From positions 124,001 to 188,000 of the IMG/VR virus record IMGVR_UViG_3300032046_000001: 64,000 nt of DNA; one strand, written 5' to 3'. The stretch is from a virus. The notes beneath the pieces are model-generated. The model ran no database searches. It had not been told where the DNA came from and worked only from the letters and a program-made list of their open reading frames with translations. Below are positions 6,444-58,123 of the stretch, one piece after another. Position numbers and translations under genes: made by a program. Numbering within the stretch: position 1 is the stretch's first letter; each line of letters opens with the position of its first letter.

Positions 6444-6486
6444 AAAGAATAGAATGATAACATATTAATAAAAAGGAGAAATATAT

Positions 6487-7947: not shown

Positions 7948-7988
7948 AAAGTAGTGGGTTTAATTTTTTTAAATATATAAATTATATC

Positions 7989-8004
7989 GGGAACAAAATA
8001 TAAA
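7989..8004 (+). promoter_or_regulatory. GGGAACAAAA-TATAAA motif, copy 1
   Basis: GGGAACAAAATATAAA in the gap between the helicase and the acidic head-module gene. It is one of seven close copies of GGGAACAA(AA) found only between genes on the plus strand. The TATAAA box resembles a T4-type late promoter box, but the start of transcription is not known. Confidence 0.45.
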
Positions 8005-8014
8005 GGATTATGGG

Positions 8015-8043
8015 TAATTGTGAATCACAATTATTTTTTTTTT
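8015..8043 (+). terminator. Intrinsic terminator or attenuator ahead of 8072 gene
   Basis: TAATTGTG 8015-8022 pairs with CACAATTA 8026-8033 around an AAT loop and is followed by ten T. This is a textbook Rho-independent terminator. It lies between the GGGAAC motif and the coding start at 8072, so it ends helicase transcription or acts as an attenuator. Confidence 0.75.
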
Positions 8044-8071
8044 AATTTACTAAAATTCGGAGGTTTTTCTA

Positions 8072-8875: not shown

Positions 8876-8942
8876 TTAAATACAACTGTTTGGAAAACAT
8901 CATTCTGAAGAAAAATGAAATGGTTCAATATGGGTTAACTAT

Positions 8943-8994
8943 ATTGTCATCTACCATGTGTAGAAAGAGTAACAATATCGTCTTAGATGATATT
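8943..8994 (+). other. Two mutually exclusive RNA hairpins in intergenic gap
   Basis: Hairpin A: AUUGU 8943-8947 with ACAAU 8972-8976, enclosing UCUAC/GUAGA with a CAUGU loop. Hairpin B: AAUAUCGUC 8974-8982 with GAUGAUAUU 8986-8994. They share bases 8974-8976, so both cannot form fully. UCAUCUA at 8947-8953 could also pair with UAGAUGA at 8984-8990. Function unknown. Confidence 0.4.
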
Positions 8995-8999
8995 AGCAA

Positions 9000-9029
9000 A
9001 TATGGCAAGGGATTTTTCCCTTGCCATAT
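9000..9029 (+). terminator. Strong 13-bp hairpin, likely terminator or RNA end
   Basis: ATATGGCAAGGGA 9000-9012 pairs perfectly with TCCCTTGCCATAT 9017-9029 around a TTTT loop. There is no U run after it, so it may be a processed or stabilising 3' end of the acidic-gene transcript instead of a classical terminator. Confidence 0.55.
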
Positions 9030-9066
9030 ACTCCATCATAACAAATAATAAAAGGAGAATTTGAAA

Positions 9067-9243
9067 ATGACTGAAAAAAAATATTTATTTAAAATTAAAA
9101 GAGCGTTATCAGAATTTATAATTATTGATGGTAGGAGAGTTAGAACACCAGTAGAGTTTATTATCCCAAAATCACAACTGGCAAAATATGAAATAAAAAT
9201 GAGACAAGAATCTATTACAGAATATGAGATTATAGAACTTTAA
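9067..9243 (+). CDS. Small hypothetical protein in head module
   Basis: 58 residues, basic, no recognised domain. ATG 9067 is chosen over TTG 9061 since AGGAG lies nine bases ahead of the ATG but only three ahead of the TTG. T4 has a tiny gene (gp67/gp68 region) at a similar place, but no similarity can be claimed. Confidence 0.6.
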   Translation: MTEKKYLFKIKRALSEFIIIDGRRVRTPVEFIIPKSQLAKYEIKMRQESITEYEIIEL

Positions 9244-9265
9244 TTTTATCAAAAATAAATTATCT

Positions 9266-9281
9266 GGGAACAAAAATTAAA
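9266..9281 (+). promoter_or_regulatory. GGGAACAAAA motif, copy 2
   Basis: GGGAACAAAAATTAAA, followed by AGGA, about 30 bases before the GTG start at 9313. Same motif as at 7989; possible promoter or leader element. Confidence 0.4.
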
Positions 9282-9312
9282 GGAAGATAATGAATAGTTT
9301 AGAGGACCAATA

Positions 9313-9555
9313 GTGAAAATTATAAAAATTTTTCATGGAAAACAACCAATTGAATTGTATGATGATGATAAGGAGTCATTAGAAGAATGTGCTAAAACTT
9401 TCTGTAATTTAATGACTTCAAACAATATAAATATACTACAAACAACATCTGGCATTTTAATTATGAGGCCGTCTAAAATAGATGGGATTTTAATATCAGA
9501 AAAGGAGAAAAATGTGAATGATTCAGATGAAGATTTTATTAGAGACGAGGAATAA
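9313..9555 (+). CDS. Small hypothetical protein
   Basis: 80 residues with an acidic tail (SDEDFIRDEE). GTG start with AGAGGA six bases upstream. No recognised domain. The ATGs further in lack a good ribosome site. It lies between the GGGAAC motif and the 149-residue membrane-anchored protein. Confidence 0.6.
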   Translation: MKIIKIFHGKQPIELYDDDKESLEECAKTFCNLMTSNNINILQTTSGILIMRPSKIDGILISEKEKNVNDSDEDFIRDEE

Positions 9556-9558
9556 TCT

Positions 9559-10008
9559 ATGTTACAAACAATAACTTCAACTATACTCATATTTGTACTT
9601 TTATTTTTATTTTTTCCACGTAGAAAGAAGGAATCATCCGTGAACTTGGATGTGATTAAAAGTTTTGACAATTATATCATTGTTCTTGAATATCATATGA
9701 AAAAGGCATATGATATAATTTTTAAAGATCAAATTATGATTTATTCATTAGAAGCAATGAAGTTAGATAATAGACAGTTAAAAGATGCCTCTAAAAAATT
9801 TGCCAAATTGGTTTTAAAACTAATAGGACCAAGACTACAAAAAGAATTTGAATATATTTACGGTGATCAAGAAACGTTATTATTCAATATAACTGAATAT
9901 TTTAACACTAAATTCGAAGATGATGAGGTTCGGCGTTGCGCCCAACAAAGAATGATGGATAATGATAAGGATAATTCAGATTTGAGTAGTATTTTTTCAA
10001 TGGAATAA
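9559..10008 (+). CDS. Hypothetical protein with N-terminal membrane segment
   Basis: 149 residues. Residues 5-20 (TSTILIFVLLFLFF) form one hydrophobic segment followed by RRKK, giving a cytoplasm-facing helical domain. Function unknown. It sits just ahead of the portal gene, where T4-like phages keep head-assembly genes, and a link of assembly to the membrane is possible but unproven. Confidence 0.65.
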   Translation: MLQTITSTILIFVLLFLFFPRRKKESSVNLDVIKSFDNYIIVLEYHMKKAYDIIFKDQIMIYSLEAMKLDNRQLKDASKKFAKLVLKLIGPRLQKEFEYIYGDQETLLFNITEYFNTKFEDDEVRRCAQQRMMDNDKDNSDLSSIFSME

Positions 10009-16538: not shown

Positions 16539-16921
16539 TAGTCAATGTCATTTTCTACATAAGACATAATTTGTTGTATCGTTATATTGTGTATCACCAT
16601 CATCTCCAATATCTCATCTTTATCTGGATGATCATATTGTAATGCACGTTTTAGTTGAGATGTATACTGAATATCCCAACATAGATCAAAATCATATGGA
16701 AGAAGTGGATCTGTTGGATTGGGAAAATCGTATAAATCATTTCTTAATTGCCAAGTACTAAATTCTTCAAGATTTACACAGCGACTATTTTTCAATGTTT
16801 CATCAACATATGAAACAGTTTTTTCAGTTCCATCCCAGTGGTATGTTCTGACGATACTCCCATCTGGTCGTTCATATAAAGCACCGAGAACAACACCACC
16901 AACTCTGACAGTAATAGACAT
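16538..16921 (-). CDS. Hypothetical protein
   Basis: 127 residues, acidic, Trp/Tyr rich (YHWDGTEKTVSYVDE). No family recognised. Its ATG overlaps the stop of the CoaB-like gene, so it belongs to that operon. Confidence 0.65.
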   Translation of the reverse strand: MSITVRVGGVVLGALYERPDGSIVRTYHWDGTEKTVSYVDETLKNSRCVNLEEFSTWQLRNDLYDFPNPTDPLLPYDFDLCWDIQYTSQLKRALQYDHPDKDEILEMMVIHNITIQQIMSYVENDID

Positions 16922-17673
16922 TATTCTTCCTTTCTATGTAATAATTCTTGATTGATTAAGTCATACAGAGTAGAATTTAGAGTGTCTCTATTCACATCAG
17001 CAATAGAACCATTTTTTGAAATTATAACTGCTCTTTGACTATACCACTCAAGACAATTAGCAACAATAAAATCGGCATCCGATTGTCTCATACTTTTAAG
17101 AGCTATATCAATAAGTTGTTGATCTGATTTCTGACTTTCAAGTTTAAACTTAACAAGAATTCCTTTAAAACCCCATTCAGTTTTAATAAGATCAACAATC
17201 TTTGGAAGAGGAACTAATTTCAAATATAATTCTTTTCTTCCTGATTTAATCTTTGGTTCATTAATTGGCCACATCATTGGATTACCAGTATCATCATAAC
17301 CCATTTCATAAGCACCATCAACACCATAATCACTAACGGCTGCTGAATGAATTATAACATCATATTGAAATGGTGTTTCTCCGGTCATAACAGGTTGATC
17401 GGCCAATTCGCGTTGAATACTATCCTTTAATTCATCAAATGTTCTATATTGAATAACATTGATATCTATGTAATCCCATTCAAGTGATCGAATGCTTTCT
17501 TCTGCATATTCAATTAATGGTCTGGAATTTAAAAGAGTAACAACAGCACCCTGTTCAAGAAAGTATTTTGCAATCTTAGTACCAGACTTACCAGTGAATA
17601 TATTACTTATTCTTCTTACGTTGTCAATACGGGAACAAGTACTACCTCCCGTTATCAGCGTTCGTATTCTCAC
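16921..17673 (-). CDS. CoaB-like phosphopantothenoylcysteine synthetase domain protein
   Basis: CoaB joins 4'-phosphopantothenate to cysteine in coenzyme A synthesis. LITGGSTCSRIDNVRRIS with SGTKIAKYF corresponds to the nucleotide-binding start of CoaB (ITAGGT..PID.VR.ISN.SSGK.G), here with FTGKSG. IIHSAAVSDY near residue 110 matches the AAVSDY motif, and KSMRQSDADFIVANCLE the C-terminal (D.IVAN) part. The start is GTG 17673, inside the preceding gene. 250 residues, as for the isolated CoaB half. A CoaC-like gene is 800 bases upstream in the same operon. Confidence 0.85.
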   Translation of the reverse strand: MRIRTLITGGSTCSRIDNVRRISNIFTGKSGTKIAKYFLEQGAVVTLLNSRPLIEYAEESIRSLEWDYIDINVIQYRTFDELKDSIQRELADQPVMTGETPFQYDVIIHSAAVSDYGVDGAYEMGYDDTGNPMMWPINEPKIKSGRKELYLKLVPLPKIVDLIKTEWGFKGILVKFKLESQKSDQQLIDIALKSMRQSDADFIVANCLEWYSQRAVIISKNGSIADVNRDTLNSTLYDLINQELLHRKEE

Positions 17674-17827: not shown

Positions 17828-18474
17828 TTTGGTTTATCCCTCCAGATTCCGATTTCAGTATATTCTTTAGTATACTTACATGTTGACTGAAATAAACGCC
17901 GTTCAAATTCCTCTCTGGTAATTTTTTCTTTACACCAACTATAATCAAAATCACCTTGTCGATCCCAACCATCTGGATCATAAACTTCCATAGTACATAA
18001 CTTTTGCCATTCTTCACTAGTTCTATATTCAGGATCTTTTTTAGATTGGACTTCAATATCATCTTCAACTTCATTAACTAATTTAATAATTCCCCTTAGA
18101 GCATCTTCAGGAGTTTTAGCTAACCAACTTAAACTCGGATATTTTTCACATAGTCCAACATACTCATTGTCATCATCAGACCATGATATTTTATAATTAT
18201 ATTTATTCACTTGTTCTCTCTTTCTTTCATATTTATCTTCAATTTCTTTAAGTTTAGCAAGTAGTCTCGGTATATCTTTTTGTGCCTCTTCCTGCATTAT
18301 GGCAAATTGTCTTAAATTTTCTCTATTAGATTCTTTTTCTCTAGCGGCATCTATGATCTTATCAAAAGCTTCTCTTTTAGTTTTACCAAAAGAAGTTAAA
18401 CTAGGACATGGTTTATAAAAACCTATATAACCATCTACTTTTGATTTTTTAATATAAAAATCAGATTTCTTCAC
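17824..18474 (-). CDS. Protein with two HicB-like domains
   Basis: 216 residues. Residues 1-50 (FYIKKSKVDGYIGFYKPCPSL then SFGKTKREAFDKI) and residues about 110-155 (YKISWSDDDNEYVGLCEKYP, LAKTPEDALRGIIKL) each follow the HicB pattern: strand, D-G-x-Y-x-G, C-x-x-x-P-S-L, G-x-T, then a helix. HicB proteins are antitoxins or partners with a partial RNase-H-like fold. A charged helix joins the two. GTG 18474 with GGAG is preferred to ATG 18537, which would overlap the CoaC gene by 77 nt. No HicA toxin is adjacent. Confidence 0.6.
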   Translation of the reverse strand: MKKSDFYIKKSKVDGYIGFYKPCPSLTSFGKTKREAFDKIIDAAREKESNRENLRQFAIMQEEAQKDIPRLLAKLKEIEDKYERKREQVNKYNYKISWSDDDNEYVGLCEKYPSLSWLAKTPEDALRGIIKLVNEVEDDIEVQSKKDPEYRTSEEWQKLCTMEVYDPDGWDRQGDFDYSWCKEKITREEFERRLFQSTCKYTKEYTEIGIWRDKPK

Positions 18475-19195
18475 ACATGTCTCCGGTGATGAAAATAAAT
18501 CTACTATGATCAAGTGGATCAACAACAGCATAATCATTAGTGGGGAAAGTTACAAATTCATTAGAAATATTTGCATGACATTTTACAACATCAAATATTT
18601 CACCAACATGATTACTAAACCAAAATTGTGAATTTTTGGCTTCATCTTTGATTTTAACTTTAATACGACCCAATTCAAGTATTCGATCGACAACGGTAGA
18701 CACACTAGGTAATTTACCAACTCCATTAATACCACATGCAAGATTACCAACAACAGGTTTAACAATGTACCATTGATTTCTTATCAATACATCGATATTC
18801 TTTTGTGTAGCAATATTCAAATACATATTACTGTTCATTGCTGGAAATATAATTCGTGGAACATTCATTGGTGTTGCTAATATAGCAGATAAGGCCAAAC
18901 TACCAGCCATACCATGTGAAATTTTGGCTATTGTGTTTGCCGTTGCTGGAACAACAGCTAAAACATCAAGATCTTGAACAGAATCAATATGCGTTATTTT
19001 CTTACCAATCATACTGGTACTTAAATATTCATCAGCTCTTGTTTGAAGTACAGTAGGTGTTATAAAATCTAATGCTTTCTTTGTTGTCATTACTTTAATA
19101 TAAATATCAGGACATTTTTTTCTCAACATAGTCATAATGATTGGAATCTTGTAAGTTGCGATGCATCCAGTAACTATTAACAAAACTTTTTTCAT
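18461..19195 (-). CDS. CoaC-like flavoprotein (phosphopantothenoylcysteine decarboxylase)
   Basis: CoaC decarboxylates phosphopantothenoylcysteine with FMN. LLIVTGCIATYK at the N-terminus matches the flavoprotein GSIAAYK start; ATANTIAKISHGMAGSL near residue 83 matches the G/ATANTIAK..G.AD.L segment; PAMNSNMY near 118 is the PxMNxxMW motif; CGINGVGKLP near 155 corresponds to the catalytic-cysteine loop (ACG..G.GR/KM). 244 residues with about 50 extra at the end. Together with the CoaB-like gene it forms a split CoaBC pair, unusual in a phage. Confidence 0.85.
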   Translation of the reverse strand: MKKVLLIVTGCIATYKIPIIMTMLRKKCPDIYIKVMTTKKALDFITPTVLQTRADEYLSTSMIGKKITHIDSVQDLDVLAVVPATANTIAKISHGMAGSLALSAILATPMNVPRIIFPAMNSNMYLNIATQKNIDVLIRNQWYIVKPVVGNLACGINGVGKLPSVSTVVDRILELGRIKVKIKDEAKNSQFWFSNHVGEIFDVVKCHANISNEFVTFPTNDYAVVDPLDHSRFIFITGDMCEEI

Positions 19196-23934: not shown

Positions 23935-23944
23935 GAGAAAGTTG

Positions 23945-25660
23945 ATGGCAAATATTTTTCCTCAACAAAGTCGCGCCATAGATCCTTATGCTAATTATGA
24001 TTCTAATGTGGTTAGTAGACTTACAAGAATGATAACCAGAAATATTGATAGTCTTCATTCTCCACATGCATGTGATGTAGAAATTGATAGTACATCACCT
24101 TTAACTTATATTATTGTAACTACTGGAACTCTATTCAAAGATGATGTTATAATAAGTGTTGATTCAGATTTTAGAGTTGACATGACAGACCAAGATTTTT
24201 ATACAGGAATTGCATGGAATGAGGAAGGATACTACTGGATTGTAGCACACTATAATTATGTTAAATCAAAACCTGCTCCACAAATGTCTATTCGGATATT
24301 TAAACCCAGTCAACATAATCTTTTAACAGAAAGTTATTTATTTTTAAAAGCTGTGAAAGTTAAACATAATTCTGTCACTGGTAAACAGGAAATAGAATCA
24401 CTTCATGATTATGATCCACTTGAACCAATAATTGGCAAAAGAACTTATACTCAAATATATCCTGGATTAGAGAATTCTGTTCCTTCAACATTCAATCTAA
24501 ATACAGATGAAGGTAGATTTATTTATGTTCGAAATAGAGCTGGTTTATATTTTGGTGTAGATGATTCATTCGAACCTGTTGATTCAGTACGTGATATAAT
24601 TGATACTACCAACTGTGAATTAGGTGATGTTTGTTATGTTGGAGATGATGGTAAGGCGTATCCTGCTATTGCCGATTCAACAGCAACAATTGGAACTGGG
24701 GTAGTTCTTCATGTTGGTTTAGCTGCTGATGGTACGGGTAGAGTTAAATTAGCTGGTCGTGTTGACCACGTTCCTGTTGAAACAGGATATCATATTCATG
24801 TAGGTGATTTAGTATATTTGTCAGGAAATGATCCTGGTACCGTTATAGATGGGGCACCGAATATTCCAAATCAAGTACAATTAATTGGTAGATCGTTAAC
24901 CGATTCAGCTACTGAAATTTCACTCTGGTTAATGCCTTCATTATTTAATGATGCAATATTAGGTCTACAGGGTGCATCTGGTGTGTCAGGTTTTTCTGGA
25001 TTTTCGGGTATTTCAGGTTATTCTGGACAAATTGGTCCATTAGGTTTTTCTGGATTATCGGGTTATTCTGGAGTTTCTGGATATAGTGGTGTTAGTGGAT
25101 ATAGTGGCGTTAGTGGATACAGTGGTATTAGTGGGTATAGTGGTGTTAGTGGACGATCTGGATATTCTGGTGTATCTGGATATTCAGGACAACGTGGTTT
25201 ATCGGGCTATGATTCACCTGTTTATTTCAGGGCATTTCAAGCTAACTTAACTTATTATTTAAATTCGGAAGATTCTGGAACAATATTATTTGGAAATGAA
25301 CAATATGATGTAACTGCTGGTGGTATTGGATGGAATGGTGTATCATATGCGCCATCAACATCAGGAATATATAATTTTCACTGTCAACTTGGAGGTAGTT
25401 ATCCATCAGGAGCAAGTGGTAATTTATATTTCGCCATGATTCATAATGGACAAACAATATCATCTCAGAATGTATTTTTAAATCAAACCAGTGGATATTT
25501 TTATGTACATATGTCAGCAGATGATTATATATATGGACCGTATGATTATGTTAAAATTACTTGGTTAAGTACTGGATTTGGAAGTAGCATAAAGATACTT
25601 AGTGGATCGGGTGCTACATATTTCTATGGACACAAGATTCCGTTTACAGGAGTATTATAA
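23945..25660 (+). CDS. Tail fibre protein with collagen-like repeats and C1q-like tip
   Basis: 571 residues. Residues 1-330 are an attachment part shared with the next gene. About 335-415 is a run of Gly-x-y triplets, mostly G-Y-S and G-V-S, a collagen-like trimer shaft. The last 150 residues (GIYNFHC, then YFYGHKI near the end) resemble a C1q/TNF-like jelly roll and may bind the host surface. ATG 23945 is preferred to TTG 23942 by spacing from GGAG. Confidence 0.75.
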   Translation: MANIFPQQSRAIDPYANYDSNVVSRLTRMITRNIDSLHSPHACDVEIDSTSPLTYIIVTTGTLFKDDVIISVDSDFRVDMTDQDFYTGIAWNEEGYYWIVAHYNYVKSKPAPQMSIRIFKPSQHNLLTESYLFLKAVKVKHNSVTGKQEIESLHDYDPLEPIIGKRTYTQIYPGLENSVPSTFNLNTDEGRFIYVRNRAGLYFGVDDSFEPVDSVRDIIDTTNCELGDVCYVGDDGKAYPAIADSTATIGTGVVLHVGLAADGTGRVKLAGRVDHVPVETGYHIHVGDLVYLSGNDPGTVIDGAPNIPNQVQLIGRSLTDSATEISLWLMPSLFNDAILGLQGASGVSGFSGFSGISGYSGQIGPLGFSGLSGYSGVSGYSGVSGYSGVSGYSGISGYSGVSGRSGYSGVSGYSGQRGLSGYDSPVYFRAFQANLTYYLNSEDSGTILFGNEQYDVTAGGIGWNGVSYAPSTSGIYNFHCQLGGSYPSGASGNLYFAMIHNGQTISSQNVFLNQTSGYFYVHMSADDYIYGPYDYVKITWLSTGFGSSIKILSGSGATYFYGHKIPFTGVL

Positions 25661-27285
25661 TGGCTAATATATATCCGTCACAAAATAGGAGTATAGATCC
25701 TTTTAGTAATTATAACTCAAATATAGTTAGTAGACTAACTCAAATGATAACACGAGGGAATGATTGTCTTCATTCTCCTCATGCTCTTGATGTTATAATT
25801 GATTCAACATCACCCACAGACCATTTAGTTGTTACAGCAGGTGAATTATTTAAAGATGATATACTAATTAGAGTTGATACTGATTTTACTGTTGATATGA
25901 CAGAATCTGATTTCTATGTTTCTGGTACACCATTTAATGAAGCTGGTTATTACTGGATAGTTGCAAATTATGAATATGCAAAATCAATACCACCTCCCCA
26001 AATGAGTATTAAAATAATAAAACCAACAGATCATTCATTATTTGATTCTACAAAACATGTATTCTTGAAATCTGTGCGTGTTTTATTTAGCGGTTCATTT
26101 TATATTGATTCAGTTCATGATGTTGATCCATTAGAACCAACAATTGGTAAAAGAACTTATACTCAAATATATCCTGGATTAGAGAATTCTGTTCCTTCAA
26201 CATTTGATGTAAATAGTGATGAAGGTAGATTTGTCTATGTTAAAGATAAGGCCAGTTTATATTTTGGTACTCAAACAGAGTTTGAAGTAGTAGATTCAGT
26301 ACGTGATATAATCGACACGACCAATTGTACTATTGGTGATCTTTGTTATGTTGGTGCTGATGGTACTGTTTATCCAGCATTGGCTGATGATAGTACAACA
26401 TTAGCACAAGCTGTTGTTATTAGTGTTGGATTAGGATCAAATGGAACAGGAAAAATAAAAACATCTGGACGAGTTGATGGAGTTCGTCTTGAAACTGGTA
26501 TTGTGCCATCAATTGGTGATCTTCTTTATTTATCAGATACTGAAGCTGGAACAACAACCAATATTTCTCCTATAGCTCCAAATCAATCACAAGCAGTAGG
26601 TGTTTGTCTAAATATTGTTGGTACAACCGTATCGATATGGTTTAATGTACTGCATGTGGTAACTGGTACATCAGGATATAGTGGTTATTCTGGTATTTCA
26701 GGATATAGTGGTTATTCGGGAATTTCAGGATATAGTGGATATTCTGGTTATTCAGGAATATCGGGATATAGTGGTATTAGTGGATATTCTGGTTATTCAG
26801 GAATATCGGGATATAGTGGTATTAGTGGATATTCTGGTTATTCAGGAATATCGGGATATAGTGGTTCTGCTGGAACAATGTATGCATTTGGTGCAGATCC
26901 ATTAGATCCCACAATAATAAATGATGATAGTGATCATGTAATTATTTGGGATGAATCATATGATATCGGATCAATATTTAATTCATCTTCATTTATTGCT
27001 CCAACCGAAGGAGTATATCATTTTGATTGTATGATTAGATCTAGTGGTTATGCTAATCCAACTAGTGGTTTTTTTTCTCTTTATATAAATGACGTATCTG
27101 GATATAACGGTGTACTAGATGAAAGATATTTTACTGCTGGAATGTCAGCTATACATACCATGAATACATCAGCAGATTTTTATTTACTTTCTGGTGGTAC
27201 AGTACGCGCTACATTTCAAAATTATAGTGGAACTAGTTTTTTAATAGATACCTTGGGTTTATTTACTGGACATAAAGTAAATTAA
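25660..27285 (+). CDS. Tail fibre protein, paralogue with different tip
   Basis: 541 residues. The N-terminal 330 residues match the preceding protein closely (for example KRTYTQIYPGLENSVPSTF in both). A longer, more regular G-Y-S/G-I-S shaft spans about 335-405, then a C1q-like tip ending in FTGHKV. ATG overlaps the previous stop. Tandem duplication with a changed tip suggests broadened receptor range. Confidence 0.75.
   Translation: MANIYPSQNRSIDPFSNYNSNIVSRLTQMITRGNDCLHSPHALDVIIDSTSPTDHLVVTAGELFKDDILIRVDTDFTVDMTESDFYVSGTPFNEAGYYWIVANYEYAKSIPPPQMSIKIIKPTDHSLFDSTKHVFLKSVRVLFSGSFYIDSVHDVDPLEPTIGKRTYTQIYPGLENSVPSTFDVNSDEGRFVYVKDKASLYFGTQTEFEVVDSVRDIIDTTNCTIGDLCYVGADGTVYPALADDSTTLAQAVVISVGLGSNGTGKIKTSGRVDGVRLETGIVPSIGDLLYLSDTEAGTTTNISPIAPNQSQAVGVCLNIVGTTVSIWFNVLHVVTGTSGYSGYSGISGYSGYSGISGYSGYSGYSGISGYSGISGYSGYSGISGYSGISGYSGYSGISGYSGSAGTMYAFGADPLDPTIINDDSDHVIIWDESYDIGSIFNSSSFIAPTEGVYHFDCMIRSSGYANPTSGFFSLYINDVSGYNGVLDERYFTAGMSAIHTMNTSADFYLLSGGTVRATFQNYSGTSFLIDTLGLFTGHKVN
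26660..26870 (+). repeat. Collagen-coding direct repeats
   Basis: Tandem copies of a unit near GGATATAGTGGTTATTC encode G-Y-S-G-I-S triplets; two stretches near 26735-26795 and 26795-26855 are nearly identical. A similar array lies at 24970-25200. These can recombine and change shaft length. Confidence 0.85.
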
Positions 27286-29953: not shown

Positions 29954-30487
29954 ATGATAAAAGATAATAATAATGAAATTTGGAAAACTATAGAAAATTT
30001 TTCAGATTATCAAGTCAGTAGTTTTGGTAGAGTAAAATCACTGAAGTTTAAAAAAGAAAAAATATTAAAATTAGGTAAAACTAAAAAAGGTTATTTTATA
30101 GTGGTTCTATGTAAAAATGGAATATATAAAACTAAAAATGTTCATGTATTGATTTATGAAACTTTCTACAATAATAAATTAAAATTAAATGAGTGTGTTC
30201 ATCATAAAGATGAGAATAAAGAAAATAATTATTATGAGAATTTAGAAAAAATAAGTGTATCAAAACATAGTAGCTTCCACAATAAAGAAAAAAGAAATCA
30301 TTTTTATAGAATAAAAAATTATGGAGAAAAAAACTCACATCATAAATTAACAGAAGAACAGGTAATTCAAATTAAATTATTATTGAAAGAAGGAAAATTG
30401 ACTCAACAAGAAATTGCCAATATATTCGGAATTTGTAGATCAACGATATCATTAATAAAAAATAGAAAAATTTGGAATTGTAATTAA
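29954..30487 (+). CDS. HNH homing endonuclease
   Basis: 177 residues, paralogue of 1211, 12068, 48648 and 57503. NUMOD4 (IWKTIENFSDYQVSSFGRVK), HNH core VHHKDENKENN, and the shared HTH tail (HKLTEEQVIQIKLLLKEG). AAGGAGAG precedes ATG. A 16-bp terminator follows. Confidence 0.9.
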   Translation: MIKDNNNEIWKTIENFSDYQVSSFGRVKSLKFKKEKILKLGKTKKGYFIVVLCKNGIYKTKNVHVLIYETFYNNKLKLNECVHHKDENKENNYYENLEKISVSKHSSFHNKEKRNHFYRIKNYGEKNSHHKLTEEQVIQIKLLLKEGKLTQQEIANIFGICRSTISLIKNRKIWNCN

Positions 30488-38927: not shown

Positions 38928-39659
38928 CTATTTATGTCCAACAACCTTATCATAATCTACCCGTTTTTGATAGATACAATCAAGTTCCTTGATCAGTATC
39001 TCTTTGATTATTTTCAAATCACCTAATCTTAAATAAACATCATCAAATTGGCCATCATTTAATAAATGGTCAATAGTTGAGTTTATAATAATAACTGGAT
39101 CTAAATTCTCAGGTTGAGACTGTGATATCGATCTCGATTTTGCTTCAGTGATATCACACATCATTAAAATCGCAGCCTCAAGACTTTGAGGTTTCATCAT
39201 CTTATATCTAAAAGTAGAACTATCAGTTGTTTGTGATTTATCAAAAAAATATTTAACAATTGTCGATCCATGATGTTGTGAGACAATATCGATAATATCA
39301 CGAGAAAAATTTCTATTGTTTAAGAGTATTAAAGCACCATCTGATACATGCCTTGTTATTATTTGATAACTAATAGTTGGTTCTAATGTATCATGAATAT
39401 TTTCACCTTCCGCTTGATTCTCACTGAAGTATTTTGGATTAAATAATTTTCCAATATCGTGATATAAAGCGCAAACTTTCATGAATATTGCGTGTAGTCC
39501 TAAACTAGATCCAACACTTTCAACCATTGTCATTACAGCTTGGGAATGTTTAAATGATCCAGGACAAGCCTCTTTAAACATAGTTAATAAACGATTTTGT
39601 GGATCTAATAATGAACTCAAATCAGATTCAGATTGTTGAATTTTCAAATATTTAAACAT
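38928..39659 (-). CDS. HD-domain phosphodiesterase resembling soluble PgpH
   Basis: 243 residues. All metal ligands of the PgpH/7TM-HD type are present: H38 (SFKHSQ), H67-D68 (ALYHDIGK), H89-D90 (GENIHDT), H104 (RHVSDG), H129-H130 (QHHGST) and D169 (MMCDITEA). ENQAEGENIHD and DGQFDDVYLRLGDL are also PgpH-like. PgpH hydrolyses cyclic di-AMP, but here the membrane part is missing, leaving a cytosolic enzyme. It could lower a cyclic-nucleotide signal of the host or of its defence. Substrate is inferred. Confidence 0.75.
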   Translation of the reverse strand: MFKYLKIQQSESDLSSLLDPQNRLLTMFKEACPGSFKHSQAVMTMVESVGSSLGLHAIFMKVCALYHDIGKLFNPKYFSENQAEGENIHDTLEPTISYQIITRHVSDGALILLNNRNFSRDIIDIVSQHHGSTIVKYFFDKSQTTDSSTFRYKMMKPQSLEAAILMMCDITEAKSRSISQSQPENLDPVIIINSTIDHLLNDGQFDDVYLRLGDLKIIKEILIKELDCIYQKRVDYDKVVGHK

Positions 39660-39668
39660 ATAACCTTT

Positions 39669-41918
39669 CTAATGACTAAAGGTATCAAGTTCAGGAACTT
39701 TACCTTCAGCTAAAAGTTTATCTTCCATCTTGCCCTTGAATACTAAATATTCATCACTAATATATTTGAGTATTTTTCTACCCAATTTAGGATGAAATTG
39801 TTCGGTTGTGGATTTGATAATAACTCCCTCTCTTATGTGATCACCAATGGTTGATTTACCAGATGATAGTTCGATAACTTTTTCTATACTAAATGGACCT
39901 TCATATAATATAGGAACTATAGGAAGTTTTTTTCTTTCACAAAAGTTTTTAAACCAATACCAGTTTAAATATTGGTTATCAATGATCACATCAAAGAATC
40001 TTACAGTTTGAGTAAATGGTGAATCATAAGGAAAAAATTTCTGAATTCCATATCCATAAATCTCACCAAATACTTCTTCACCCAAATTCAATTTGTTTTT
40101 CAATTCATACTTCTCTGCCATTCTCCAATATACATTCAAAAACTTATCTTTCTGTGTTCTCTTCAAGTTAGTACGATGTGTACCAACAACAAAGAATCCT
40201 GGGTTTTTAACACCTAAATATTTAGTTAGTAATAATCTCATTTTTAACATCAATGGAATATATTTCCAATTGATATTAAAAGGATCTACATTACCAGTCC
40301 TAAGATTAGAATTATGTACTAATACTCCATTTGCAAAATAATTATGTGTTTCTGTTTCAATATCATAACGAGTTTTTAAATATTTATATCTGTCAGTTGG
40401 TATGTAATCATCAATTGAAATTATAGTTTGTTCAGTTAAAAGTGGAATATTTTTAAATTTTATTTTGGTAATAATAGGATTAATATTTAATCTATAATTT
40501 TCTGGTAATTTGTATTGCATACACTTTGGAATATATGGTGAAATCAAAACAAATAATTTATTTGCATCTTCATGATTAAGTCTTATTCTCCAATATTCAT
40601 CACTTTTATATTTAGTAGAATTTATATCTAAATATTTTAACGCACTAATTAAATTATCAATAGATTCTTCATTAAATCCGCATGTTGCAAATAATGCTCT
40701 ATCTTTCTGGTCTTCGTTATGAGATAATGAACCATCATCCATATACCAAAATGCTAATGATATTGGTGATAATTTTCCTATTATAGATTTTGGAACTTCT
40801 TTTTTGGAATCAATAAACCAATATGAAAATAATTTTTTTATTGATTTATCTGATACAGTTCTTGCTCGACACATTTCAGTTCCGTAACCACTAATTATAT
40901 TTTTTTGTTTATTTCCAGAAATGTCATTTAGTAATTCTAATGTATAATCAATATATTCTTCATGTTCTTTTTTATGTCCAAATTGAATAGAATTATCAGA
41001 TAAACAACCATCTCCTAACATTTTTCCTATAAGTACTTGTTCTTGAATATATGAAAGTTCTTTTTGATAATTATTAATTAAAATTTTATCATCTTTTTTT
41101 AAATCAGAACATTTAATATATTTATTTAAATCTGGATTAAATATTTCATGATTTTCAGTTATTATTAATATACCATAATGATTACCAGATATCCCATTTC
41201 TAGTAAATTTTATTTTTTTCCATTTTTCTGAAATTCCATTATTAAACCAATTTAATATTTTGGATGAAACTATATTATTATTTTCATCTACACCTTTAAC
41301 TTCTAAATTTAATTTATCATTTACTATTTTTCCAATTTTTTCTTTTTTGTCATTAAATAGATCTATTTCACATTCATAATTCAAACAACCATGAATTTTT
41401 TCAAGAATAACTACTTCTTCATCTTCTTCAAATATATCAGGAAAATTCTTGAAATTTTCAATGTTGGTATATTGTGGAAAACCAGTAAATTCAGGATATT
41501 GAGTAAATCCTTTTGATTTTAAAGCACAACCACCATCACCTGTTTCTGGTGGTTCATACTTTTCGATCTTCAGTATTTCTCTAACATCATCTCCAAGTTT
41601 CCATTCTGGTTCTTTATCAATAATCAAACCTTGAGATAATATACCTCTAAGTTTAACTGTTTTAACACGACCAGCTATGATATTACCCTGTGTATCTTTT
41701 ATTTTATTGGTAAGATATCCAGTTATTCCCAACTTTTCAGATAACTCGAATGGAATGAGGCTGTCTATAGGAATATAGACAGCCTCATCTCCAACCTTAT
41801 ATTTACCTTTAGAAGAAATACAACTCCATCCTTTAACCTGAATAATTTCTAATCTATCCGCATTATCATGAGGTGTAATATTTTTAATTTTTACAACCTC
41901 ACATATTAATGAACTCAT
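39669..41918 (-). CDS. RNA ligase (DRB0094-like) interrupted by an intein
   Basis: The N-terminal OB-like domain (SSLICEVVKIKNITPHDNAD, GDEAVYIPIDSLIP) and catalytic domain match the DRB0094-type RNA ligase family, which seals nicks in RNA with ATP. The motif I lysine is in VVILEKIHG. Directly after that Gly an intein of 359 residues begins, and the extein resumes as SNLRTGNVDP, giving KIHG-SN after splicing. Without splicing the active site is broken. ATG 41918 has AGGAGG 11 bases ahead; GTG 41930 is unlikely. Spliced length about 390. Confidence 0.85.
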   Translation of the reverse strand: MSSLICEVVKIKNITPHDNADRLEIIQVKGWSCISSKGKYKVGDEAVYIPIDSLIPFELSEKLGITGYLTNKIKDTQGNIIAGRVKTVKLRGILSQGLIIDKEPEWKLGDDVREILKIEKYEPPETGDGGCALKSKGFTQYPEFTGFPQYTNIENFKNFPDIFEEDEEVVILEKIHGCLNYECEIDLFNDKKEKIGKIVNDKLNLEVKGVDENNNIVSSKILNWFNNGISEKWKKIKFTRNGISGNHYGILIITENHEIFNPDLNKYIKCSDLKKDDKILINNYQKELSYIQEQVLIGKMLGDGCLSDNSIQFGHKKEHEEYIDYTLELLNDISGNKQKNIISGYGTEMCRARTVSDKSIKKLFSYWFIDSKKEVPKSIIGKLSPISLAFWYMDDGSLSHNEDQKDRALFATCGFNEESIDNLISALKYLDINSTKYKSDEYWRIRLNHEDANKLFVLISPYIPKCMQYKLPENYRLNINPIITKIKFKNIPLLTEQTIISIDDYIPTDRYKYLKTRYDIETETHNYFANGVLVHNSNLRTGNVDPFNINWKYIPLMLKMRLLLTKYLGVKNPGFFVVGTHRTNLKRTQKDKFLNVYWRMAEKYELKNKLNLGEEVFGEIYGYGIQKFFPYDSPFTQTVRFFDVIIDNQYLNWYWFKNFCERKKLPIVPILYEGPFSIEKVIELSSGKSTIGDHIREGVIIKSTTEQFHPKLGRKILKYISDEYLVFKGKMEDKLLAEGKVPELDTFSH
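40311..41387 (-). mobile_element. Intein with LAGLIDADG homing endonuclease in RNA ligase
   Basis: 359 residues from Cys (TGT at 41387-41385) to Asn (AAT at 40313-40311), followed by Ser as +1 residue. Start CLNYECEIDLF is block A-like; ITENHEIF is block B-like (N-H for T-x-x-H); VLIGKMLGDGCL and AFWYMDDGSL are the two LAGLIDADG helices; ANGVLVHN is blocks F/G with the penultimate His. It is inserted between G and S of the catalytic K-x-H-G-S motif. Confidence 0.88.
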
Positions 41919-41933
41919 TTTTAAGTCCACCTC

Positions 41934-43559
41934 CTAATCAGAATTTTCATGCCATTGTAGATCATCCAAAATTGCGTCAGCCACATTTTTTAGATGATCT
42001 CCTATTTTTTCAAAATTGTTAACTATATCAATAAATATAATACCAGCAAGTACATCACACTGACCTTGCTTTAATCTATTAATATGGTCACTTTTAAGTT
42101 TAGTTCTAAGTTCATTAATCATTTGTTCCTTAATTACGATACACTGAGCATCCTCAACTTTATTAGATTGAAGTGAAAAAATACTACTTTCAATCATGTC
42201 TAAAAGTTCCTTATACATTGTCATTAACCCTTGTGTTGCATCGTCTGATAATGACAATTTATTTTCTATTTTCTGTTTAATGAGATTTCTAAGATTCATT
42301 GCATGATCACCAATTCTTTCGACATCATTAACAATATGAATCAGTGCAGGAATTTTTGTGGACTCTTCATGTGATAAATTTTCTTCCATCAACCGAACTA
42401 AATAACTTGTTATAGAATACCGTCTAGTATCTACAATTTCCTCTTTTTGTTCAATGTTTTCAAGAAATTTAAGATCATTTTTTGAAAATGCGTTTATGAC
42501 AGACTGTATCATAATTTTTGACAACTCTAATGTTTTAACAATCTCTTTTGTCGCTGCTTCTATTGCTATAGATGGAGTATGCAATAAATGATTTTCAAGA
42601 TATTTAGTATCCGCATAATCATCACTATCAGTGTGTTTTTCTTTTACTAATTTGATTATGAATTTACTATATAGTTTTGTAAATGGTAAAATAAGTAATG
42701 TACATGTGACATTGAATATCGTATGTGCGTTCGCACACTGTCGAGCAAGATCAATAGATGTTAATTGAATCAAGTGAGTAAATGGATGTATAAATGGTAG
42801 AAAAATAAGTGTGCCAAAAACGTTAAAGAAAAGGTGTGCAACTGCCGTTCTCTTGGCATTTGTTGACGTTCCAATACATGCCAATAATGCCGTTGCACAT
42901 GTGCCAATATTACATCCTAAAATTAGAGGTACTGCACCACTTAGGGTTATGAGATTAAGAGATGCTAAAGTTAATACTATGCCTGTTGTGACACTACTAC
43001 TTTGAATAATGGCTGTTACAATAGCACCTGCAATGACAGCTAAAATAGGGTTTGTATTAAATCTTATAAAAATATTTTTAAATATTATACTATCAGCTAA
43101 TGGTTTTACACCAATAGTCATAATATTTAATCCCAGAAATAGAACACCAAAACCAAGCAATGACAGTCCGAAATATTTCCAGGATTTATTTTTACAAATA
43201 AGATATAAACATAAACCAATTGCCAGCACGGGTAGCGCATATTCCGTCAGTTTGAATGCTATAATCTGTGCTGTCATCGTTGTGCCTATATTGGCACCAA
43301 ATATTATACCCAACGTTTGATAGAAACTGAGAAGTCCGGCATTTACAAAACCTACAGCAAGAACCGTAGTTGCCGAGCTTGATTGAATGATAGATGTAAT
43401 TATTGCGCCAACAATAGTTCCTTTTAATGGACTGCTTGTTAATTTTCCTAAGATAGTTCTTATCTTGTTAGAAGCCACTTTTTCGAGTCCATCACCCATT
43501 AAATGGATACCATAAATAAATAATGCCAGACCGCCAATTAAATTAAATATAACATTCAT
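41934..43559 (-). CDS. Na/phosphate cotransporter family protein with PhoU-like domain
   Basis: 541 residues. The membrane half (about 1-310, eight or more spans) has the two inverted repeats of NptA-type Na/Pi carriers: IITSIIQSSSATT with GANIGTT, and IVTAIIQSSSVTT with GCNIGTC. The last 220 residues are helical and PhoU-like (VNDVERIGDHAMNL and NFEKIGDHLKNV, each with the E..GDH motif). It would bring phosphate into the infected cell. Coupled closely to the RNA ligase gene. Confidence 0.9.
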   Translation of the reverse strand: MNVIFNLIGGLALFIYGIHLMGDGLEKVASNKIRTILGKLTSSPLKGTIVGAIITSIIQSSSATTVLAVGFVNAGLLSFYQTLGIIFGANIGTTMTAQIIAFKLTEYALPVLAIGLCLYLICKNKSWKYFGLSLLGFGVLFLGLNIMTIGVKPLADSIIFKNIFIRFNTNPILAVIAGAIVTAIIQSSSVTTGIVLTLASLNLITLSGAVPLILGCNIGTCATALLACIGTSTNAKRTAVAHLFFNVFGTLIFLPFIHPFTHLIQLTSIDLARQCANAHTIFNVTCTLLILPFTKLYSKFIIKLVKEKHTDSDDYADTKYLENHLLHTPSIAIEAATKEIVKTLELSKIMIQSVINAFSKNDLKFLENIEQKEEIVDTRRYSITSYLVRLMEENLSHEESTKIPALIHIVNDVERIGDHAMNLRNLIKQKIENKLSLSDDATQGLMTMYKELLDMIESSIFSLQSNKVEDAQCIVIKEQMINELRTKLKSDHINRLKQGQCDVLAGIIFIDIVNNFEKIGDHLKNVADAILDDLQWHENSD

Positions 43560-48647: not shown

Positions 48648-49241
48648 ATGAAAATTTATAAAAATTTAAATTTACAGGATTTAAATGGTGAAATCTGGAA
48701 AGTTATAGAAAATTTTCCAGATTATCAAGTTAGTAGTTATGGAAGAGTTAAATCACTAAAATGTAGAAAAGAATTAATAATTAAACAACATATAGATTCT
48801 AAAGGATATTTGCGTACATCTATATATAAAAAAGGTAAAAAAGTTCATAGACTAGTTTATGAAACATTTAAAGAAAAATTAAATATAGATTATGATATCC
48901 ATCATATAAATGAAAATAAAGAAGATAATAATATTAATAATTTGGAGAAAAAATCTCATATTTTACATTCAATTAATCACAATCCTAAAGGCAATAATCA
49001 TAAAAATTATGGCAAACATCATTCTGAAGAATCAAAGATTAAAATAGGTAAAAATCATGTTGATATTCGTGGAATTAATAATCCAAGTAGTATATTATTA
49101 ATTCAAGAAATTATTCAAATTAAATTATTATTAAAAGAAAAAATATTATCTCAAAAAGAAATAGCAGAAATATTTGAAGTTCATCCAATGACTATATCAT
49201 CTATTAAAAATAAAAGAACTTGGTCATATATAATAATATAA
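48648..49241 (+). CDS. HNH homing endonuclease
   Basis: 197 residues. NUMOD4 (IWKVIENFPDYQVSSYGRVK), HNH core IHHINENKEDNN, NUMOD-type GKHHSEESKIKIGKNH, HTH tail (SQKEIAEIFEVHPMTISSI). AAGGAG precedes ATG. It is the only plus-strand gene inside a long minus-strand block, a sign of insertion. Confidence 0.9.
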   Translation: MKIYKNLNLQDLNGEIWKVIENFPDYQVSSYGRVKSLKCRKELIIKQHIDSKGYLRTSIYKKGKKVHRLVYETFKEKLNIDYDIHHINENKEDNNINNLEKKSHILHSINHNPKGNNHKNYGKHHSEESKIKIGKNHVDIRGINNPSSILLIQEIIQIKLLLKEKILSQKEIAEIFEVHPMTISSIKNKRTWSYIII

Positions 49242-50556: not shown

Positions 50557-52002
50557 TTAAACTAAATGGTGACATTCTTTTTTAGACATAATAATTTTCA
50601 GTTCTTCATACGATACTGGTTTGAAATTATTATTATCAACTCCAACATCGTAGGACTTTCCTAATGACGGAAGTTCTCCATGTGAATTGCCCACTATTAT
50701 ATGTTTTCCATTTCTTCTAATAACTATAGTTTTATTTTTAACCTTAACACACCAAAAATGTTCATTATTTACAGTCTCAATAAAAACTTTATTTTTTAAA
50801 TTATCGTGTGTTCTACACGATCGTTTAGTTACTACCAATTCATAATTAATTTTTTTTGCAAAACCACCGCGTCGTTCAGAAATATTACACATGTATTCAT
50901 TTCTTATACATGCTGTTTGTATTAAATCTGCTTCTATTTTTTTAGATGTGTATATTAAAATTGAAGTTTTATTTTTATAACCATCTGTATGAGTATATTC
51001 TTCTAATATTATATCTAATTGATTTTGATTTGAATCAATAATTATATCACTAATAGGTTTTAATCTAATATTATAAAAATAATCTGGTTTATGAAAATTA
51101 AAACAAATTGAATCATCTTTCTGTTTATTTCTGCTATAATTAATATTCAATTTTTTTAATAAATTTTCTATTCTGTTAATTTTTCTTGTTTTAAAAACTC
51201 TAATTCTTATTAAATCAGTATTACATAAATTACCATCTGCCGCTATCCAAACTAATAACTTAATTTGGTCATTGTTTAAATTAATTCCAGTTTGATTGCC
51301 AATTGCAGATTTTTTAAATTTTCTTTTATTGATTTTAAAAATTTCATCCGTATAAAATTTTCTAAATTCCTCTTTTTTTCTTCCTATTAAAATATCAATC
51401 AATATATGATTTGGTGTTAATCTTAAATCTAACCCCTTTGATTTTATATTATACACATCACCTGTATGATTATAATCTATAATTTCGTCTATTTCATTAT
51501 ATTCTAATTTTTTATTTTCAATATTTAAAGTTAATATTTTATGACCATATAATAATTCACTTCTTTTTTTCCAACCGTTATCTGTTAAAATTTCTGTTTC
51601 ATCATCTAAACAATGGGCATATAGTTCCCATGCTCCATGATGAGAACAATTCCAAACTCTCATCGCATAATGACACAGAGTTATTTTTTGTTGTCCAATC
51701 CTAATATCATGAAGATTGTGAACTTCTTTACAATATTCTTTAATTGTATTTATAAATCGAAAATCATGATTCCCAAGGATGAATATTTTTTGACCATTCA
51801 TTTTACTAAGTGCAGTTATTGCACCTTCCTTGGTCATCGCAATATCACCTAAATAATAAACAGTGTCTTTTGTCCTAACGATTGAATTATGGTTATCCAA
51901 AAGACACTGTTGTTGTTCGTACTCATTTTTAAAAGGCCGATTGCAGTACCTCAATATATTATAATGAAGATTGTGCCAATCAGCAGTAAAGAAAATATTC
52001 AT
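50557..52002 (-). CDS. Metallophosphoesterase interrupted by an intein
   Basis: Calcineurin-like phosphoesterase: TADWHNLH (D-x-H), YYLGDIAM (G-D), ILGNHDF (G-N-H-D), LCHYAM and the last motif, A-H-S-H-G, which is split by an intein after the first His. Spliced product about 172 residues, like small phage phosphoesterases with activity on 2',3'-cyclic or other phosphate ends. In this context it may process RNA ends for the RNA ligases. Extein resumes SHGELPSLGKSYDVGVD. Confidence 0.87.
   Translation of the reverse strand: MNIFFTADWHNLHYNILRYCNRPFKNEYEQQQCLLDNHNSIVRTKDTVYYLGDIAMTKEGAITALSKMNGQKIFILGNHDFRFINTIKEYCKEVHNLHDIRIGQQKITLCHYAMRVWNCSHHGAWELYAHCLDDETEILTDNGWKKRSELLYGHKILTLNIENKKLEYNEIDEIIDYNHTGDVYNIKSKGLDLRLTPNHILIDILIGRKKEEFRKFYTDEIFKINKRKFKKSAIGNQTGINLNNDQIKLLVWIAADGNLCNTDLIRIRVFKTRKINRIENLLKKLNINYSRNKQKDDSICFNFHKPDYFYNIRLKPISDIIIDSNQNQLDIILEEYTHTDGYKNKTSILIYTSKKIEADLIQTACIRNEYMCNISERRGGFAKKINYELVVTKRSCRTHDNLKNKVFIETVNNEHFWCVKVKNKTIVIRRNGKHIIVGNSHGELPSLGKSYDVGVDNNNFKPVSYEELKIIMSKKECHHLV
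50686..51612 (-). mobile_element. Intein in metallophosphoesterase
   Basis: 309 residues from Cys (51612-51610) to Asn (50688-50686), followed by Ser. Block A CLDDETEILTDNGWK, block B as LRLTPNHILI, homing-endonuclease helices around LLVWIAADGNL and LEEYTHTDGYK, block F WCVKVKNKTIV and block G HIIVGN. The residue before the final Asn is Gly instead of the usual His. Inserted within the metal-binding G/A-H-x-H motif. Confidence 0.88.
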
Positions 52003-54330: not shown

Positions 54331-54902
54331 ATATGTCCCTCAATTTTCATTGTAGTCAATTTAACATTTTTGGCATGATAGTAATATTCTGGTGAAATAA
54401 AACCTCTTGATTTTTGTATATCGATGTATATATGTTTGTTAATAAATTCTGAACCATAATCATCAATTTTATCTCCATCAATATTTTTTATTTTTAATTT
54501 CTTCTTTCCCTGAGATAAAATATGATCTTCTGTAGCTTGAAAAATCTCATCTTTTCTATAATCTTGTTCCATCAAATCTATTAAATAACACGCCCTTAAA
54601 ATATAAATTTTATTTTTCTGTATAATAGGAAATGCGTCTCTAACATCACACAGCCATATTTCATATCTAATTCTCCCTGGAAATTTATATCTCCATGATG
54701 TTAAAACGTGTCTAAGTTCGACTTCAATATTATACAAGTCTTCTTCACGATCAATTTTATAAATGAAAGCTGGTCTTTTTGACCACTTATTTGGTTCATA
54801 TATTTGACACAATTGGTGTCCGAGAGGTAATACAGATGATGTTCTTCTATCACCTTTTATAGAATCATCATATTCGAGAACAACTGCTTTAATAAACATC
54901 AT
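54327..54902 (-). CDS. Hypothetical protein
   Basis: 191 residues between rtcB and the PurA/PurZ homologue, overlapping both by 4 nt. Strand-rich start (FIKAVVLEYDDSIKGDRRTS). No family recognised. The coupling suggests shared regulation only. Confidence 0.6.
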   Translation of the reverse strand: MMFIKAVVLEYDDSIKGDRRTSSVLPLGHQLCQIYEPNKWSKRPAFIYKIDREEDLYNIEVELRHVLTSWRYKFPGRIRYEIWLCDVRDAFPIIQKNKIYILRACYLIDLMEQDYRKDEIFQATEDHILSQGKKKLKIKNIDGDKIDDYGSEFINKHIYIDIQKSRGFISPEYYYHAKNVKLTTMKIEGHI

Positions 54903-55936
54903 GACCTCCTAAATATTCCGATATCACCATAAAGTGATTCAAACTCTTCTCTTGTATATAGAGATTTTTTATCCAATCCAAAAAAATCAAATCGGATATT
55001 TAGTCTATTCTCAATACAATTAATATACTCAAATGTTTCTTCAGAAACTTCTCTGTCGATATAATCAACATGATTCATTACAAATCTTGTTGGTCTATTT
55101 ACTATAATCGATTTTCTAGCAACTCCATAATCAAAACATCCAGCAATTCTTCTAATCCTATTAGTAACAGACGTATATTCAATAACTTGTCTTGATAACT
55201 GTTTTGATAACTCATCCCATGTTGTTTCTAAAAATAGTGGACCTGAATTACCACCAACTCTTATAGGATATGATCTGAAAACCATTACTATATCATCAAC
55301 ATCGAGTGGGCTTAAACCAGCTTCAGACACAAAACCAGCCGCTGAAGTATCACGAGAAGTAACAAACGGATAATGTTGTGAATGAAGAAGTGATAATCCG
55401 AATCCTTGGGTTCCCTCAATAATAATTCTATTTCCCATATCGAGTTGTATTCTCATGAAACGTTGAGATTCTCGAATATAATCATATAATAAAGGTTCAT
55501 CTCCAGCTAAACGTACTTTATCACGACCAATACGTCTAATCACAGCTTCACCAGTTCCACTACAAGTAGAACCTATTTTGCAACCTAATAATTTTTCTTT
55601 TTCATTATTGACATCTTCATCAGATATTAACATGGCATTTGGATCTATTATTAATCGATTTATTGAAATACCTGTTAATTCAATTTCTTTGAATAATAAT
55701 TTTAAATTGATATAACTTCCAGCAGGTAATACACAATTAATACGAGAAGTAATAGCAGATACGGGAAGTTGTCTCAATATAATAGATTCACCAGAATTAT
55801 TAATTATTGTATGTCCAGAATTTGGACCACCAACTCTAACAACAGTAGAGACGTTCTTGTCAAATGATAAATAGTAAGTTACTTTGCCTTTGCCTTCAGA
55901 ACCATATTGACCACCAACTATAACTGTAACTGGCAT
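54899..55936 (-). CDS. Adenylosuccinate synthetase homologue with PurZ-type active site
   Basis: 345 residues, the short size of archaeal PurA and of phage PurZ, not bacterial PurA (about 430). GGQYGSEGKGK at 8-18 is the P-loop; residue 13 is Ser where PurA has the catalytic Asp (G-D-E-G-K-G-K). GGPNSGHT keeps the catalytic His (H42). TCSGTGEA, EGTQGFGLSLLHSQHYPFVT and PIRVGGNSGP follow in PurA order. PurZ condenses dGMP with Asp toward 2-aminoadenine (dZ). ATG 55936 overlaps the preceding gene. Confidence 0.85.
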   Translation of the reverse strand: MPVTVIVGGQYGSEGKGKVTYYLSFDKNVSTVVRVGGPNSGHTIINNSGESIILRQLPVSAITSRINCVLPAGSYINLKLLFKEIELTGISINRLIIDPNAMLISDEDVNNEKEKLLGCKIGSTCSGTGEAVIRRIGRDKVRLAGDEPLLYDYIRESQRFMRIQLDMGNRIIIEGTQGFGLSLLHSQHYPFVTSRDTSAAGFVSEAGLSPLDVDDIVMVFRSYPIRVGGNSGPLFLETTWDELSKQLSRQVIEYTSVTNRIRRIAGCFDYGVARKSIIVNRPTRFVMNHVDYIDREVSEETFEYINCIENRLNIRFDFFGLDKKSLYTREEFESLYGDIGIFRRS

Positions 55937-57502: not shown

Positions 57503-58123
57503 ATGAAAATATTTGAAAATTTAGAAAATGAATTGTGGAAAGTTATAATAGAATTTCCAGATTATTCTGTTAGTAATATTGGTAGAATTAAGTCATTAAA
57601 ATTTGGAAAAGAAAAAATATTAAAACAATGTAAAGATGGTAAAGGTTATTTTTGTATTAATTTATATAAAAATGGAAAATGTAAGTTAAGAAAAATTCAT
57701 ATATTATTATACGAAACTTTTAATAATTATAAATTAAAAAATAATGAATGTATTCATCATAAAGATGAAAATAAAGAAAATAATAATTTTGATAATTTTA
57801 AGTTGATGACAAAATCTAAACATAGATATTATCACATGAAATATGATAATAATCTAAGAAGTATGTTAGGAAAACATCATACTAATAATACCAAAAATAT
57901 CATAAGTAAAACGATGAAAGAAAAATTTAAAAATAAAGAATTAAATTTAAAAGGTGAAAATCATCCAAGACACAAACTAACAGAAGAACAAGTAATTCAA
58001 ATTAAATTATTATTAAAAGAAGGTATATTAACTCAACAAGAAATAGCTGATATGTTTTGTGTTAGTCAAATGACAATTTCATATATAAAAAGAGGAAAAC
58101 ATTGGAACCATATAAAAATTTAA
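57503..58123 (+). CDS. HNH homing endonuclease
   Basis: 206 residues. NUMOD4 (LWKVIIEFPDYSVSNIGRIK), HNH core IHHKDENKENNN, and the shared HTH tail (HKLTEEQVIQIKLLLKEG). GGGAGAA precedes ATG. Lies between the divergent promoter motif and the endolysin gene. Confidence 0.9.
   Translation: MKIFENLENELWKVIIEFPDYSVSNIGRIKSLKFGKEKILKQCKDGKGYFCINLYKNGKCKLRKIHILLYETFNNYKLKNNECIHHKDENKENNNFDNFKLMTKSKHRYYHMKYDNNLRSMLGKHHTNNTKNIISKTMKEKFKNKELNLKGENHPRHKLTEEQVIQIKLLLKEGILTQQEIADMFCVSQMTISYIKRGKHWNHIKI

Follow-up and report, generated by a model that had tools for sequence, protein, structure and literature searches.

Known phage anti-signal enzymes (Acb1, Apyc1 and the ring nucleases) are directed at molecules dedicated to defence. 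Acb1 is a 2H phosphoesterase and Apyc1 a metallo-beta-lactamase, folds that are unrelated to HD. Both are phage enzymes that destroy cyclic-nucleotide signals, the first in anti-CBASS and the second in anti-Pycsar activity (PMC9117128), and it is in this respect that they resemble the viral PgpH-type protein described here, whose substrate is predicted. In a survey of jumbo phages, HD-GYP, HD-alarmone, DHH, calcineurin-like and 2H phosphodiesterases were predicted to serve in counter-nucleotide defence (Iyer et al., 2021, PMC7824862). The HD-GYP and HD-alarmone enzymes of that survey are likewise viral members of the HD superfamily proposed to remove signalling nucleotides, but they belong to other HD subfamilies (HD-GYP structures reach a TM-score of only 0.45 against the viral model), and a PgpH-type phage family was not encountered in the part of the survey that was available.

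The closest characterised system is PgpH of Listeria (Lmo1466), whose HD domain converts c-di-AMP to pApA and is specific against c-di-GMP (PMC8177086). In the mechanism described for this enzyme, water is activated by two metals and held in place by D648, and K547 stabilises the oxyanion (PMC12072042). No report of a phage PgpH-type enzyme, or of a phage enzyme aimed at c-di-AMP, which is an essential messenger in many bacteria, was found in the open-access literature, a coverage that leaves subscription papers and most preprints outside. What appears to be new at the locus considered here is a known catalytic domain in a free-standing, virus-only form, with a substrate and a purpose that are predicted.

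The window (the whole stretch of 64,000 nucleotides that was analysed) covers 124001-188000 in a virus record of 312,420 bases. This record carries a major head protein, a portal, a replicative helicase and a large terminase, and the attribution of the gene to a phage, made in the original prediction, is borne out by them. It also encodes what we take, from its sequence, to be an RNA polymerase beta'-like subunit. The size of the record, together with the head protein, portal, helicase, terminase and beta'-like subunit, indicates a jumbo phage, whose head protein is distantly related (24% identity) to those of the Bacillus jumbo phages AR9 and PBS1. The features on which the argument depends are the following.

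38928..39659, minus strand: free-standing PgpH-type HD phosphodiesterase of 243 aa (open reading frame, phmmer against the PDB, HDIG model, AlphaFold2, Foldseek)
39267..39278, minus strand: QHHG motif, residues 128-131, with ligands H129 and H130 (H129, H130 and G131 invariant in 60/60 viral members)
39447..39464, minus strand: YHDIGK core motif, residues 66-71, with ligands H67 and D68 and catalytic K71 (H67, D68, G70 and K71 invariant in 60/60 viral members)
39664..39670, minus strand: Shine-Dalgarno-like AGAAAGG, a few bases 5' of the HD gene ATG and overlapping the RNA ligase stop codon (sequence)
39669..41930, minus strand: RNA ligase split by a LAGLIDADG intein, directly 5' of the HD gene (phrog_968, PF09414, PF14890, PF03161)
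41934..43559, minus strand: Na+/Pi cotransporter with PhoU domains, opening an apparent three-gene run (PF02690, PF01895)

The open reading frame at 38928-39659 was confirmed on the minus strand, with an ATG start and a product of 243 aa of the HD phosphodiesterase type, and it is present in a single copy in the 312,420-base record. The best PDB match of the product is the HD domain of Listeria Lmo1466 PgpH (4s1b/4s1c; phmmer E 1.7e-41, approximately 37% identity over the HD domain), besides which the same search returned zero credible matches, and its scores exceed the cut-offs of both the Pfam HD and the NCBIfam HDIG models. Other HD classes fit less well: the Cas3'' nuclease models stay below threshold (Pfam Cas3_HD 23.0 bits against a cut-off of 23.1; NCBIfam cas3_HD 19.9 against 43.45), none of the dNTPase/DatZ-type models in Pfam and NCBIfam is matched, and the stretch after the last ligands, QHHGSTIVKYFF, lacks the GYP of HD-GYP proteins. 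PHROGs hold no real match. The parts that would make a full PgpH (7TMR-HD), namely the N-terminal extracellular 7TMR-HDED domain and the seven-helix membrane part, are also absent, as had been proposed for the membrane part; the frame spans 246 codons from stop to stop, with a stop codon just upstream of the gene, so that fusion to a membrane domain is impossible.

In a residue-by-residue alignment H38, H67, D68, K71, H104, H129, H130 and D169 correspond to H514, H543, D544, K547, H580, H604, H605 and D648 of the Listeria enzyme, in which K547 is the catalytic lysine and the other seven residues are the metal ligands (PMC8177086, PMC12072042). All seven ligands and the catalytic lysine are therefore kept, as are the flanking PgpH-type motifs and residues (ENQ, NxHD, FRY, P157, R233 and Y236), in agreement with what had been read from the sequence. 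An AlphaFold2 model built with 42 relatives in the input (mean pLDDT 94.8) gives the same picture. In Foldseek searches it matches 4s1c/4s1b with TM-scores of 0.90-0.95 by target length and E-values of 3e-16 to 6e-15 (0.95 and 3.1e-16 for 4s1c); there follows a gap, and then HD-GYP structures at a TM-score of approximately 0.45 and dNTPases (2dqb, E 2.8e-3, TM approximately 0.44), with the nucleotidase YfbR (2pau) at E 0.39. Sequence and predicted fold thus both place the protein nearer to the PgpH HD domain than to other HD classes, far from DatZ and YfbR-type nucleotidases, with which it shares the superfamily. In BFVD, a library of viral structures, the model has no match at E <= 0.001.

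The proposal of a soluble PgpH-like HD protein with an intact active site is strongly supported by these results, and it can be widened to a virus-only family of some 60 free-standing members. IMG/VR was searched with an alignment as query, which yielded 20 and then 59 further loci, and the resulting family of 60 (59 loci beyond the query) comprises approximately 52 distinct members, since several pairs and trios are near-identical. One locus first returned as a relative, L043, encodes an HD-GYP-like protein and was dropped. The domain is free-standing in all 57 viral loci that are uncut by a contig end, in frames of 238-288 codons, and these uncut members lack any hydrophobic segment (none above 1.63 in a 19-residue Kyte-Doolittle window). 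Sixteen positions are invariant in 60/60 members (H38, H67, D68, G70, K71, E80, N81, H89, H104, H129, H130, G131, R151, Y152, D169 and R233); median pairwise identity is 44%, at which the invariance of the ligands excludes chance. The family is under purifying selection, dN/dS being 0.04-0.20 for viral pairs, restricted to those with unsaturated synonymous change. Many members are carried on contigs of 150-315 kb; a large terminase is encoded in 12 of the 24 family records tested, for the most part those of greater length, and 6/17 family records contain the head protein family.

The best 80 cellular relatives are at most 41% identical to the query and are either membrane PgpH proteins or cut by a contig end. 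Two phyla were also sampled. In Bacteroidota, the phylum to which L044 (Flavobacteriales) belongs, 198 genomes contained 117 PgpH-type domains, and in Bacillota, that of L058 (Oceanobacillus), 101 genomes contained 92, all of them in frames of 443-919 codons. None of these 209 domains from the 299 Bacteroidota and Bacillota genomes is free-standing, although a rare free-standing cellular copy may exist, because the cellular sampling consists of best hits and two phyla. A maximum-likelihood tree of 18 viral and 37 cellular rows (more than ten phyla) separates viral from cellular sequences by a 100/100 branch, and a larger tree of 52 viral and 80 cellular rows gives the same split, also at 100/100. 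As the root was not inferred, the claim is of one viral family and not of a direction of transfer. Recent capture from a host is rejected, and the viral copies constitute an old, selected, virus-only family.

The annotated phages of INPHARED gave eight matches. Those whose full frame was inspected encode membrane PgpH and lie on bacterial contigs that contaminate the collection, and one (L022) is truncated at the end of its contig; no annotated phage member of the free-standing family was found there. The entries L018, L019, L020 and L021, labelled as Listeria, Enterococcus or faecal phages, carry bacterial membrane PgpH genes and seem to be contigs of the host, by which searches for phage genes can be misled.

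Compared with the Lmo1466 HD domain (4s1b, 4s1c), the viral protein has in common the fold, the seven metal ligands, the catalytic lysine and the ENQ/NxHD/FRY motifs; it differs in having no transmembrane or extracellular domain, in its separate side of the tree and in a set of conserved changes shared by the viral family. Beside the active-site motifs these are H37 to K/R (adjoining ligand H38), A/T98 to Y/F and S/A103 to R; the cellular P-G-P after RY becomes K/R-x-x at 153-155, further changes lie at 174 and 225, and G108 is S/T in most viral members, the query keeping G. The family-wide changes near the active site might alter base specificity or otherwise tune the substrate.

Since everything needed for it is conserved, the protein most likely hydrolyses c-di-AMP, and given the specificity of its nearest characterised relative for c-di-AMP, removal of this nucleotide is the best available reading of the function. 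The protein is probably a soluble, unregulated PgpH catalytic domain that would bind c-di-AMP in the infected cell and open it by one hydrolysis to 5'-pApA. According to this proposal a two-metal HD phosphodiesterase would carry out the single cut, and an enzyme devoid of the 7TMR-HDED part would escape the membrane and extracellular inputs that reach PgpH. In a host that makes c-di-AMP, its removal would in turn free its targets (ion and osmolyte transport, wall homeostasis and the link to (p)ppGpp), and any c-di-AMP-dependent output of a defence system would be weakened as well. The existence of a virus-only family of membrane-free PgpH domains suggests that large phages erase c-di-AMP or a related defence signal. 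It is a tentative further step, and one on which we would not wager, that large phages have long carried a regulator-free c-di-AMP hydrolase because their infection generally needs host c-di-AMP, or a defence that responds to it, to be cleared.

That the viral enzyme removes a defence signal, an idea already contained in the original prediction, is possible. In one version of this notion, the PgpH scaffold would have been retuned to degrade alarm signals that are cyclic di- or oligonucleotides (products of CBASS, cyclic oligoadenylates) in place of housekeeping c-di-AMP. The virus-specific substitutions close to the active site would fit such a change, and the jumbo-phage survey offers a precedent in its predicted phosphodiesterases (Iyer et al., 2021, PMC7824862), but the ligands and the PgpH motif set are all unchanged. 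The gene neighbourhoods can be read on both sides. In L038, in L041 and in L034 with its kin, an HD_4 (ppGpp-hydrolase-like) gene lies no more than approximately 3.5 kb from the HD gene, and calcineurin-like phosphoesterases and NADAR genes are found near it in other relatives, L041 having in addition NAMPT and a NadM-like Nudix gene. The pairing with HD_4 nevertheless reflects at most about three independent events, HD_4 being far away in two other records; counter-signal genes are not a constant neighbour of the HD gene, and the query itself has an RNA ligase and a Na/Pi transporter as its neighbours. An HD_4 gene near the HD gene also makes sense for a c-di-AMP hydrolase, because (p)ppGpp inhibits PgpH (PMC10243994). 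The neighbours in some relatives lean towards the management of nucleotide signals and do not decide the purpose, and a retuned counter-defence hydrolase is considered rather unlikely.

The order of the genes around the query raises the question of RNA repair, in which the HD protein would prepare RNA for the ligase encoded upstream by clearing ends that bear a 2',3'-cyclic phosphate or a phosphate. The apparent run consists of the Na/Pi cotransporter-PhoU gene, the inteinned RNA ligase and, last, the HD gene; approximately 10 bases separate the ligase stop from the HD start, and the two genes are probably co-transcribed. Shuffled sequences contain sigma-70-like promoters at least as often as the region of the HD gene does. 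The query genome also encodes RtcB, and in L024 a weak RNA-ligase-like match and RlaP stand just upstream of the HD gene, while in L023 RlaP stands about 2 kb upstream. Across the viral family, however, the RNA ligase fails as a general partner, being far from the HD gene or absent from the record in most relatives. Other members of the closest clade have a Rad52-like gene (recognised from its sequence) and other genes upstream instead, in one large subgroup genes for an NAD-dependent DNA ligase and an HNH protein come after the HD gene, and no constant partner was found across the family. The motif set, moreover, is that of a cyclic-dinucleotide enzyme and not of a CCA-type HD protein, which the genome encodes separately, and a role in end-healing is improbable.

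A nucleotide-pool function (dNTP triphosphohydrolase or 5'-nucleotidase, in the manner of DatZ) has also to be weighed, given that the window encodes a PurZ-like adenylosuccinate synthetase approximately 15 kb from the HD gene (54899-55936, minus strand; phrog_1211, E 7e-70) and could belong to a 2-aminoadenine genome. The DatZ enzyme of Z-genome phages belongs to the HD superfamily and is found in phages that bear PurZ. In the PurZ-like protein the position of the catalytic Asp of PurA is presumably occupied by Ser (GGQYGSEGKGK), and the phage may make 2-aminoadenine. A DatZ-type function linked to this gene was rejected on the predicted fold: E-values are 3e-3 for dNTPases (TM approximately 0.44) and 0.39 for YfbR, against 3e-16 for PgpH, and the corresponding Pfam and NCBIfam models are unmatched, which leaves this explanation with a very low probability. 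Finally, an artefact (assembled bacterial DNA) or an inert piece of pgpH captured from a host, a suspicion to which the contaminated INPHARED matches lend some colour, is contradicted by the 57/57 uncut copies that are free-standing amid phage genes (with a large terminase in 12/24 tested records), by their virus-only side of the tree, by purifying selection and by the invariant ligands, and has almost no chance of being correct.

If it is true that the infection of large phages generally needs the clearing of c-di-AMP, this nucleotide would be a target of phage attack, beyond its role as a housekeeping messenger. A virus-only family with an intact PgpH active site would make the rewiring or disarming of c-di-AMP signalling by phages directly testable. 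A soluble, membrane-free enzyme of this type could also serve as a tool to deplete c-di-AMP in cells. The viral HD enzyme is, in addition, a candidate for what triggers Panoptes and other systems in which decoys resembling c-di-AMP are guarded; Panoptes itself uses 2',3'-c-di-AMP, which is a different isomer (PMC12657218, PMC12657230).

Several other features of these genomes may be recorded. In L041, a 228-kb viral contig, HD_4, the PgpH-type HD gene, a NadM-like Nudix gene and NAMPT stand in a row at 5174-9678, a candidate island of nucleotide-signal and NAD+ counter-defence. A calcineurin-like phosphoesterase gene of the window (50557-52002, minus strand), apparently interrupted by an intein as judged from its sequence, belongs to a family with members close to the HD gene in 11 other viral contigs. 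The query genome's second HD protein (G000:11185-11709) matches a CCA-type HD PHROG and not DatZ, and the annotated-phage matches listed for the Na+/Pi cotransporter (41934-43559) look like bacterial contamination. Separate CoaB-like (DFP) and CoaC-like (Flavoprotein) genes at 16921-17673 and 18461-19195 (minus strand) amount to a split CoaBC of coenzyme A synthesis, and two consecutive structural-looking proteins at 23942-27285 (plus strand) contain long SGYSGISGYSG repeats. Approximately 37 members of one homing-endonuclease-like family are distributed across the 312-kb record (for example 29954-30487, 48648-49241 and 57503-58123 of the window), and they share a C-terminal helix-turn-helix-like motif (KLTEEQVIQIKLLLKEG..TQQEIADIFGV).
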